NCBI GenBank assembly: GCA_022791135.1
Contig: JAAVYM010000001.1
Span: 1-64,000 of the forward strand
DNA: 64,000 bases
DNA from: Oscillibacter sp.
GTDB lineage: Bacteria > Bacillota > Clostridia > Oscillospirales > Oscillospiraceae
Reading direction: 5' to 3'
Positions 40,187 through 43,141 of the stretch are shown piece after piece (position 1 is the stretch's first letter; the number at the start of each line of letters is the position of its first letter). The notes beneath the pieces were generated by a model. The model saw nothing but the letters and a program-made list of their open reading frames with translations. It did no database searches and had not been told where the DNA came from. The translations under genes and the position numbers were made by a program.

Positions 40187-40215
40187 TTGACGGATGGTGG
40201 TTTCCGTGCTATCAT
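40187..40215 (+). promoter_or_regulatory. sigma-A promoter of TM1266-like/ABC operon
   Basis: TTGACG-17 bp-TATCAT. Confidence 0.75.
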
Positions 40216-40221
40216 CCTTTT

Positions 40222-40410
40222 CAGCAAGCTTGTCCCCGGGAAGTATTTCTGACCGGAGGACTCAATGTCATCCATCGATCTGGCGGCAAGGTATTTCCGC
40301 GCCGTAAGAGGAGAGCGGGACACGGAAATGGATTTCCGGGTCTTATCCAGCTGTGGCTTTACGGCCCCTCTGCCGCCAGGCAGGGGGGCTTTACTTTGCT
40401 TAAAAGGAGG
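40222..40410 (+). ncRNA. structured 5' leader, candidate riboswitch of unassigned class
   Basis: CTGGCGGCA (40280-40288) complementary to TGCCGCCAG (40371-40379); nested GCCGTAA:TTACGGC and CGGAAA-TGGA-TTTCCG; competing hairpin GCCCCTCTGCC-GCCA-GGCAGGGGGGC (40364-40389) before the RBS. Confidence 0.5.
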
Positions 40411-40420
40411 GAAGACTCTT

Positions 40421-40675
40421 ATGGAGACTCGCGTTGCCGTCCTGGCGGTCATCGTCCGGGAGGCAGATTCTGTGGCGGCGTTGAACGCGCTGCTGCACCA
40501 GTATGAGAGCGCTGTTATTGGCCGGATGGGCGTTCCCTGCCGGGAGAGGGGAATCCGCCTGATCAGTGTGGCCCTGGATGCCCCGGCGGATGTTATCTCC
40601 GCCCTGTCCGGGAAGATTGGGCGGCTGCCCGGCGTAACGGCGAAAACGGTTTACGCGCCCCCAACTTTCTCATAA
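40421..40675 (+). CDS. TM1266-like putative regulator of the iron-only hydrogenase system
   Basis: METRVAVLAVIVREADSVAALNALLHQYESAVIGRMGVPCRERGIRLISVALDAPADVISALSGKIGRLPGVTAKTVYA; AAAGGAGGG RBS. Confidence 0.8.
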   Translation: METRVAVLAVIVREADSVAALNALLHQYESAVIGRMGVPCRERGIRLISVALDAPADVISALSGKIGRLPGVTAKTVYAPPTFS

Positions 40676-40765: not shown

Positions 40766-41845
40766 ATGATGAAAGTTTTGAAGACCCTGGCACTGGTTCT
40801 GGCGCTGCTGCTGACCCTATCTGCATGTGGTGTAATCCGCGGCAACGATGGCTCCACAGAGCCGGTGGGCGGCTCCGCCCCGGCGGAGGAGGCAGATGGG
40901 CAGACAGCGCAGGCGCCTTTGGATACTTCCGCGGATGAGATGCATGAGGAGTTCCCCCTTCTGATTGGGGCGCTGAAAGGCCCCACGGCGATGGGAATGG
41001 TGAAGATGATGGAGTGGAAGTCGGTGCTGGCGTCCGTTGGCGTGTGGTATTTCCAATTGGCGGGTTCCGCCGATGAGCTGACCCCCAAGCTCATCAAGGG
41101 GGAATTGGACATCATCTGTGTTCCCGCGAATTTGGCTGCGGTGCTGTACAACAAAACGGAGGGCCAGATTGTCACCCTGGCTGTCAACACCCTGGGCGTT
41201 CTCTACGTCATGGAAAACGGCGGGGAAAGTGTTCAGTCCATGGCGGACCTGAAGGGCAAGACCCTCGTCGCCGCTGGGAAGGGGTCTACGCCGGAGTTTA
41301 GCCTCCGCTATCTGCTGGAACAAAACGGGTTGGATCTGGACAAGGATGTGACAGTCGAGTGGAAGTCCGAGCATGCCGAATGCGTCGCCGCCCTGGCGGC
41401 GGGAACGGCGGATTTGGCCCTGCTGCCGCAGCCCTTCGTCACCGTGGCTCAGGGGAAGCTGGAAAATCTCCGGGTGGCCCTGGATCTGACGGCAGAATGG
41501 GATGCGCTGGACAATGGCTCCGCCATGATTACCGGCGTGGCGGTGGCCCGGCGGGATTATGTGGAGAAGAACCCGGAGTTGATCGAGGAATTTCTGACGG
41601 AGTATGCCAAGTCTGTCGAGTGGGTGAATGAGAACGTCGCTGAGGCGGCGGAGCTGGTGGTGCAGAATGGCATCGTGGAAAGCTCCGCCGTCGCGGAAAA
41701 GGCCCTGCCCCAGTGCAACATCGTTTGCCTCACCGGGCAGGAGATGTTCGAAAAGCTCTCCGGCTATCTCCAGGTGCTGGCGCAAGCAAATCCGGAGTCC
41801 GTGGGCGGCGAGCTGCCAAGAGACGACTTTTTCTATGGAATTTAA
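40766..41845 (+). CDS. ABC transporter substrate-binding lipoprotein (SsuA/NMT1-like)
   Basis: Lipobox LTLSAC; LKGPTAMGMVKMMEW, LKGKTLVAAGKGSTPEFSLRYLL. Confidence 0.88.
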   Translation: MMKVLKTLALVLALLLTLSACGVIRGNDGSTEPVGGSAPAEEADGQTAQAPLDTSADEMHEEFPLLIGALKGPTAMGMVKMMEWKSVLASVGVWYFQLAGSADELTPKLIKGELDIICVPANLAAVLYNKTEGQIVTLAVNTLGVLYVMENGGESVQSMADLKGKTLVAAGKGSTPEFSLRYLLEQNGLDLDKDVTVEWKSEHAECVAALAAGTADLALLPQPFVTVAQGKLENLRVALDLTAEWDALDNGSAMITGVAVARRDYVEKNPELIEEFLTEYAKSVEWVNENVAEAAELVVQNGIVESSAVAEKALPQCNIVCLTGQEMFEKLSGYLQVLAQANPESVGGELPRDDFFYGI

Positions 41846-42584
41846 GATCCGGCCGGTTTTGTTCTGGCTTTTGATCTGGCAAGGGGGGAGCATGGCTCTG
41901 GCGGTGGCGCACTCCGGTGGAAAGCTGCTGCTGGCCTCTCCGGTCCAGGCGTCCCTCCGGCTCTTGGAGTTGCTGCCCACCCCGGCCTTCTGGCGGGCGG
42001 TGGGAAATTCCTCCGCGCGCATCCTGGGCGGGTTCCTGATTTCCTGCGCCCTGGCCGTTTTATTTGCGGCCCTGGCGGCGGGACGGCCTTGGCTTCGGGA
42101 TTTGCTGGCCCCACCGGTGGCGGTGGTGAAGGCTGTGCCGGTGGCCTCCTTTATCATTCTGGCTCTGGTCTGGCTGGAGGGCCGGTCCTTGTCGCTGTTC
42201 ATCTCCGGGCTGATGGTCTTTCCACCGGTGTATCTCAACGTGCTGGAGGGACTTGGACGGACGGACAGGAAGCTGCTGGAGCTGGCCCGGGTCTATCGAA
42301 TTCCCCGGTCACGGCGGCTTTGGGGAATCTACCTGCCTCAGGTGCTGCCTTATTTCCGCTCCGCCGCCTCCTTGGCCCTGGGACTTTGCTGGAAGGCCGG
42401 TACGGCGGCGGAGGTCATCGGACTGCCGGCGGGAACCATCGGCGAGCGGCTGTACACCGCAAAGGTTTACCTGGAGACGCCGGACCTCTTTGCCTGGACC
42501 GCCGTGATTTTGGGCCTGGCAGCGGCATTTGAGCGGCTGTTTCTGGCAGCGGTGGACACGCTGGCAGAAAGGGTGGGAGGATAA
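41835..42584 (+). CDS. ABC transporter permease (SsuC/TauC-like)
   Basis: AVGNSSARILGGFLISCALAV, VKAVPVASFIILALVWLEG, LGLCWKAGTAAEVIG (EAA-like). Confidence 0.9.
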   Translation: MEFKIRPVLFWLLIWQGGSMALAVAHSGGKLLLASPVQASLRLLELLPTPAFWRAVGNSSARILGGFLISCALAVLFAALAAGRPWLRDLLAPPVAVVKAVPVASFIILALVWLEGRSLSLFISGLMVFPPVYLNVLEGLGRTDRKLLELARVYRIPRSRRLWGIYLPQVLPYFRSAASLALGLCWKAGTAAEVIGLPAGTIGERLYTAKVYLETPDLFAWTAVILGLAAAFERLFLAAVDTLAERVGG

Positions 42585-43141
42585 TGGAAATTCGTGTGGA
42601 GGGGCTTTGCAAATCCTACGGTGGCAAGCAGGTGCTGACGGACCTGAGCGCCGTGTTCCTCCCGGGGATCACCTGCATCAGCGCGCCCTCCGGGACGGGG
42701 AAGACCACCTTGCTCCGGCTGCTGCTAGGGCTGGAGGAGGGCGACGGCGGGGCCATATATGGAGCGGACTGCCGCTGGGCTGCGGTCTTTCAAGAGGACC
42801 GCCTGCTGGAGAATCTGTCCCCTGCCGCCAATCTGCGCTTTGCCTTGGGGGAGATCCCGGAGGCGGCAGGAGCGATGCTGGAGGACCTGGGGCTGGAACT
42901 GGCGGACGCCAGGCCCGTCTGCAAATGGTCCGGAGGCATGCGGAGGCGGCTGGCCCTGGCCCGGGCGTTGCTGGCCCCGGCGGAGGCGTTGGCCCTGGAC
43001 GAGCCCTTTGCCGGGCTGGACCGGGAGAGCCGGGAGCGCTGTCTGGCCTGGATCCGCAGGGCGGCGTCGGAGAAACCGGTGCTGCTGGCTACCCACGAGC
43101 TGGCGGGGCTGGAGAATGTGCCGGTTCTCAGGCTGGCGTGA
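42584..43141 (+). CDS. ABC transporter ATP-binding protein
   Basis: SAPSGTGKTTLLRLLLGL, WSGGMRRRLALARALLAPAEALALDEPF. Confidence 0.93.
   Translation: MEIRVEGLCKSYGGKQVLTDLSAVFLPGITCISAPSGTGKTTLLRLLLGLEEGDGGAIYGADCRWAAVFQEDRLLENLSPAANLRFALGEIPEAAGAMLEDLGLELADARPVCKWSGGMRRRLALARALLAPAEALALDEPFAGLDRESRERCLAWIRRAASEKPVLLATHELAGLENVPVLRLA

Follow-up and report, generated by a model that had tools for sequence, protein, structure and literature searches.

A conserved hairpin RNA upstream of TM1266 and [FeFe]-hydrogenase maturation genes in Clostridia: a candidate riboswitch class

The leader and the genes downstream

The window, i.e., the whole 64,000-nucleotide stretch of Oscillibacter sp. DNA analysed here, contains a TM1266-family gene followed by the three genes of an ABC transporter. 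The leader upstream of these genes (40187-40420) consists of two hairpins, P1 (40232-40261) and P2 (40280-40308), and an intrinsic terminator (40363-40390). An original prediction, made from the letters of this region, had proposed an orphan riboswitch or attenuator. The promoter, the stems, the CGGAAA-TGGA-TTTCCG hairpin, the terminator hairpin and the RBS on which it was built are all present, and they are included in the following list.

40187-40215, + strand: sigma-70-type promoter TTGACG-17-TATCAT with an extended -10 TG (10/12 matches)
40227-40330, + strand: whole element, match of the two-hairpin covariance model R1 (82.6 bits)
40232-40261, + strand: P1 hairpin GUCC-CCGG-GAAG-loop-CUGA-CCGG-a-GGAC, with the CU-GA/GA-AG internal loop in permuted order (alignment, covariation, folding)
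40280-40308, + strand: P2 hairpin with the conserved core CUGG-CGGC-AA-GG-UAUUU-CC-GC-GCCG-UAAG (alignment, covariation, match of model R2)
40301-40307, + strand: P2 3' strand GCCGTAA, antiterminator partner of 40359-40365 (own versus swapped pairing test)
40317-40343, + strand: P3, variable hairpin between P2 and the terminator, core CGGAAA-TGGA-TTTCCG at 40323-40338 (folding, relatives)
40359-40379, + strand: antiterminator partner TTACGGC...TGCCGCCAG, which overlaps with the 5' arm of the terminator (complementarity, pairing test)
40363-40390, + strand: intrinsic terminator hairpin, then TTTACTTTGCTT (terminator search; with a T-tract in relatives)
40403-40411, + strand: Shine-Dalgarno AAAGGAGGG upstream of ATG 40421 (sequence)
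40421-40675, + strand: TM1266-family gene (TIGR03959), stand-alone NikR-C/ACT-like domain (100.5 bits, cut-off 60.8; fold)
40766-41845, + strand: ABC transporter substrate-binding lipoprotein, SsuA/NMT1-like (profile match, fold)
41842-42584, + strand: ABC permease, SsuC/SaoP-like, start approximate (profile match)
42584-43141, + strand: ABC ATPase (profile match)

Among 149 related genomes, 105 encode this substrate-binding protein, its gene usually following TM1266. Its fold was uninformative with respect to the ligand, SsuA, PqqT, TauA and Thi5-like proteins being about equally similar.

Two promoter-like sites were found in the 1.2-kb region, against 0.2 expected, and relatives carry similar promoters upstream of the same RNA element. 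As in attenuators with an intrinsic terminator, a hairpin and a T tract lie between the promoter and the first gene, together with an antiterminator. Compared with shuffled sequences, the leader has a folding z of -2.9, and 0 of 200 shuffles are as good. The single-sequence evidence is nevertheless modest, because the single terminator-like site equals the number expected by chance at such composition, and the case therefore rests on comparative data. Among 62 relatives, the position of the terminator and both the P1 and P2 hairpins are conserved; P3 keeps its position and varies in sequence. An in-frame ATG at 40265 would lengthen the TM1266 frame by 52 codons, crossing P2 and the terminator (window 40265-40420). 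This reading frame is probably fortuitous, since the leaders of relatives differ by indels.

Conservation and covariation of the hairpins

Leaders recognisable by DNA similarity occur in 12 genomes of the same genus besides the window's own. They share two conserved blocks, GUCCCCGGGAAG..CUGACCGGMGGAC and UCUGUCGNUCUGGCGGCRAGG..CCGAGCCGNAAGAGG, after which come a variable hairpin, the terminator and the RBS. In the window's own genome, the R1 match listed above is the only significant copy, the next best reaching 18.1 bits.

For the wider comparison, the 62 related leaders were gathered by a sequence-only profile and then aligned. Over P1 and P2, 92.5% of the pair cells are formed compared with 87.1% after shuffling, with 56 double-change cells against 14.5, and pairing is lost once the partners are slid. 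Changes on both sides were detected in 11 of 18 pairs, and in 7 of the 10 pairs of P1, a hairpin with a folding energy of -15.3 kcal/mol (z -3.5). The consensus of P2 is CUGA-NNNN-RA-RRN..YY-GA-NNNN-NAAG, arranged in the order CU-GA-helix-RA-helix-loop-helix-GA-helix-NA-AG. Several of the internal-loop letters that remain unpaired are conserved to the same degree as the invariant pairs.

In the window's genus, P1 contains the CU-GA / GA-AG element with its strands swapped and closed by a terminal loop, and can be read as a copy of the P2 loop in permuted order. This permuted first hairpin was seen in the window's genus and in L106, unlike the arrangement in other Clostridia, in which two P2-like hairpins of normal order (CUGA..GAAG) stand in tandem, e.g., in L116, L126, L133, and L178. 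Tandem copies are missing from many leaders.

A class-wide P2 alignment of 25 sequences, some of which came from a scanner demanding pairing, is 98.2% paired compared with 74.9% after shuffling, with double changes in 7 of 9 pairs. Two fairer tests were added, using 80 named loci fetched afterwards with the TM1266 protein alone. A pattern of the unpaired letters only was present in 12 of the 80 leaders and in none of the 142 control windows. Helix 1 of these matches is 95.8% paired compared with 74.9% after shuffling (maximum 87.5% in 1000). The 48 model matches in the named loci, fitted to the model and drawn from independently fetched loci, are 97.2% paired compared with 71.9%, with 100 double-change cells against 30. 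The RNA has, as is required of a riboswitch, a conserved secondary structure supported by covariation. The original prediction had named covariation across homologous leaders and a search of Rfam as its checks, and the covariation is present in the 62 related leaders, in the class-wide alignment, and in the named loci.

Alternative pairings and expression platform

Two complementarities connect P2 with the terminator region. The first is between CTGGCGGCA (40280-40288) and TGCCGCCAG (40371-40379), the second between GCCGTAA (40301-40307) and TTACGGC (40359-40365). The original prediction had combined them, the second nested within the first. The 9-bp stem exists as a complementarity, but all of its nine pairs were seen in the window alone among 50 related leaders; as judged from sequence, it is a window-specific antiterminator conformer and not a conserved aptamer. 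The nested pairing turned out to represent the generally conserved alternative, that of the P2 3' strand, and the conserved P1 hairpin had been missing from the proposed structure.

In 33 class-level leaders, the P2 3' strand and its own terminator 5' arm pair with an average of -11.9 kcal/mol compared with -10.0 kcal/mol for swapped partners, a difference reached in 0 of 200 permutations, and in L130 and L163 at least 10 pairs connect the two. Within the window's genus and among its nearest relatives, own pairing of the P2 3' strand is also better, and the effect is weaker, 2 of 300 permutations reaching it; there, the P2 5' strand pairs no better than swapped (not significant). Because the own-versus-swapped tests favour the P2 3' strand, the 9-bp stem is considered an unusually strong local addition to the general GCCGTAA:TTACGGC antiterminator.

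A second layout was found in the leaders of hydG and hydF, where the hairpin ends at the Shine-Dalgarno (ACUAACGGGGAAG..CUGACCCGAAAGAAGGG..AUG) and leaves no space for a terminator. At the sequence level, the leaders thus contain mutually exclusive structures like those of expression platforms, with the P2 3' strand set against the terminator 5' arm, or with the hairpin overlapping the Shine-Dalgarno. The pairing tests lend support to the pair of exclusive structures originally proposed, both class-wide and in the genus. The two layouts both suggest an OFF switch: in either of them a stabilised hairpin would turn the gene off, a direction that is read from the base pairing.

Distribution and gene context

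Within the class, 175 of 291 genomes carry TM1266. A pattern of conserved letters detects the hairpin in 42 class-level leaders, about half of the TM1266 leaders, and their helices are unlike in sequence yet paired (CGTC/GACG, CGCC/GGCG, CACC/GGTG, CATC/GGTG, and CCGC/GCGG). The RNA recurs across Clostridia as a single or tandem hairpin. R1, which covers both hairpins and is genus-specific, was too narrow as a class-wide model; it added one TM1266 leader (L106) and one match in a coding region. Model R2 (41 positions, P2 alone), which matches the window at 40275-40314 with an E of 2e-7, was searched against 40 whole genomes. All 24 matches at E<=0.02 precede H-cluster genes or an ABC transporter of the window's type. 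The gene downstream is TM1266 in 19 cases, hydG in two, hydF in one, an aspA-hydF operon in one, and the binding-protein gene of the transporter in one; among the 19 is a second TM1266 gene that precedes the transporter. The model had been built without any of the non-TM1266 sites. In the 80 named loci, all 31 matches at E<=0.01 lie on the coding strand, and the gene that follows is TM1266 in 21 cases, hydG in 9, and that of a FecCD permease in 1.

When 20 TM1266-less genomes were scanned, one credible match was obtained, upstream of hydG in G162, and the remaining inspected matches were in coding sequence or outside a hydrogenase-gene context. TM1266 was not detectable in G162; this genome is a draft (97% complete), and its sister species have the gene. 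The other HydG-bearing TM1266-less genome, G166, has no such hairpin before hydG; the RNA is therefore present in one of two HydG-positive, TM1266-negative genomes, the positive one being the draft.

The genes downstream form a coherent set from one pathway, as expected for a riboswitch regulon from gene position. The RNA family is widespread and apparently undescribed, and sits before nearly every gene with which Clostridia build the iron-containing active site of their [FeFe]-hydrogenases. Read from the position of the RNA, the regulon in Clostridia would comprise TM1266, HydE, HydG, HydF, AspA, and two kinds of importer. In two genomes that are more distant, the RNA was also observed before the same ABC transporter at loci apart from the hyd maturase genes (L235:7700-8400 and L237:8120-8360), and at one of these loci a second TM1266 paralogue separates the RNA from the transporter.

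Hydrogenase bearers without HydG

Catalytic subunits of [FeFe]-hydrogenases are encoded in eight genomes of the window's genus (G000, G007, G014, G038, G045, G063, G078, and G084), and most of these subunits have the TSCCPxW and MPCxxK signatures. HydG was found in none of these eight genomes, several of which are 97-100% complete. The HydG-less genomes of the genus still have TM1266, the RNA, and the ABC importer. Hydrogenase-bearing genomes without an identified hydG are also discussed in a report on acetogenic Clostridium (PMC9431212).

Other loci place the RNA close to hydrogenase genes. In another genus of the same family, an operon of the RNA, TM1266, substrate-binding protein, permease, and ATPase is directly convergent with hydA (L397:6284-10817). 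In Loigolactobacillus rennini (L327:3026-9768), TM1266, a FecCD permease, an ATPase with a TM1266-like C-terminal domain, HydE, and a NifH-like gene follow the same RNA; this locus adjoins a group A6 [FeFe] hydrogenase and does not include HydG. Similar cores occur in L261, L263, L271, L275, and L337, and genes resembling nitrogenase components continue in L261, L263, L271, and L275.

According to the original prediction, the leader controls the import of a cofactor or precursor tied to [FeFe]-hydrogenase function. The hydrogenase link proved strong, with the same RNA before hydG, hydF, and aspA in other genomes. Control of import is something we still infer, and the idea is strengthened because the same transporter with the same RNA adjoins hydA in another genus and because HydG is absent from the window's genus.

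Comparison with known RNAs

At the gathering threshold, a cmscan of the window and of 40 relatives with Rfam 15 detected no family apart from one tRNA. At laxer thresholds, which included 15 diverse members, weak sub-threshold chance matches were obtained, none of them credible. Like the riboswitch families of Rfam 15, the RNA has a leader position, aptamer-like conserved loops, and a terminator or Shine-Dalgarno platform, but none of these families matches it. The orphan status originally proposed is thus borne out, together with the covariation and the mutually exclusive structures.

Guanidine-II (mini-ykkC) RNAs consist of two small hairpins that have a conserved loop motif in common and often lie close to a terminator or Shine-Dalgarno. 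The layout is similar here; however, the conserved letters of guanidine-II lie in terminal loops and its genes are guanidine exporters, whereas the present RNA has the internal loops CUGA/GAAG, hydrogenase genes, and no Rfam match. With Moco/Wco RNAs, the new element shares the concept of metal-cofactor sensing, as metal-cofactor genes lie downstream of both, but it has no Moco-family match, and its structure and downstream genes differ. Tandem Wco copies occur upstream of hydrogenase genes (PMC9481103).

The TM1266 gene product of the window is a clear member of the TIGR03959 family (structure 2NZC), and the tie of this family to an RNA element is new here. No published function of the family was found in the literature search. 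The search, outside which lay subscription journals, preprints, and supplements, returned no paper joining a riboswitch with TM1266 or describing such an RNA for HydG, and the main text of two motif-discovery papers makes no mention of hydrogenase, hydG, or TM1266. As far as this search reaches, the RNA apparently represents a new, undescribed class of structured leader RNA.

Proposed mechanism and alternative explanations

The leader is most readily explained, with a probability of about 0.62, as a member of a new class of cis-regulatory RNA for building or importing H-cluster material in Clostridia, acting as an OFF-type riboswitch with a small molecule as the most likely signal. What is observed is the conservation and covariation of the RNA, its lack of an Rfam match, its gene context, and the complementarity between the 3' strand of the hairpin and the terminator. 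The core is a hairpin of ~30 nt, CUGA-helix-(RA/GA)-helix-loop-GAAG, often present in two copies. A signal might bind and stabilise this hairpin, whose 3' strand would then no longer hold the 5' arm of the terminator, so that the terminator would form and the operon would be switched off. In the hydG and hydF leaders, the same hairpin at the Shine-Dalgarno would block translation. The signal could be a small molecule reporting H-cluster supply, e.g., an assembly intermediate, iron, or an imported precursor.

It is also possible, although the odds are against it, that the leader is a protein-binding autoregulatory RNA, in which ligand-loaded TM1266 would bind the hairpin and repress the gene that encodes it together with the rest of the H-cluster genes. 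A protein partner has to be considered because TM1266 accompanies most copies of the RNA. As the commonest gene downstream, TM1266 also lies where the gene of the binder is expected in such leaders, and TIGR03959 is annotated as a putative regulator with the fold of a lone NikR C-domain/ACT sensor without the DNA-binding part. Tandem G-A internal loops in small hairpins are typical protein sites. Many TM1266 genes are, however, found without the RNA, and G162 carries the RNA before hydG with TM1266 not found (in the 97%-complete draft; sister species have it). A small molecule is preferred over TM1266 because of this last case, the small and highly conserved double internal loop, and the use of two different platforms. 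A more specific form of the riboswitch reading, by which the signal would be an H-cluster building block (an iron carbonyl/cyanide intermediate or the 2Fe cofactor) that the importers let HydG-less bearers such as the window's genus salvage from their neighbours, is regarded as unlikely.

The remaining explanations are less easily reconciled with the comparative data. A plain attenuator, in which transcription speed or a leader peptide would set the balance between terminator and antiterminator with no dedicated sensor, could draw on the frame that runs from ATG 40265 into TM1266; it is very unlikely, given that this frame is not common to the relatives, that conservation at several unpaired positions of the internal loops equals that of the invariant pairs, and that the same hairpin occurs at Shine-Dalgarno sites without a terminator. 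Membership in a known riboswitch class as a distant relative, e.g., of Moco/Wco, guanidine-II, or xanthine NMT1, would agree with the context of a transporter and a metal cofactor and with the two-hairpin layout; the Rfam 15 scans gave no match even at permissive thresholds on 15 diverse members, which makes it extremely improbable. Finally, a GC-rich leader could contain such structures by chance, as it is expected to contain one terminator-like site, and this explanation is already refuted by the covariation and the gene-specific recurrence of the hairpin.

Significance

To our knowledge, the riboswitch proposed here would be the first RNA class for [FeFe]-hydrogenase maturation. The uncharacterised TM1266 family would gain a testable role, and a so far unassigned ABC importer would be tied to the supply of the H-cluster. 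The hydrogenase bearers that lack HydG raise a sharp question on the source of their CO and CN ligands. With this RNA, the signal that controls the H-cluster pathway becomes directly searchable, and the search for the ligand is tractable because both the genes and a small hairpin are known.
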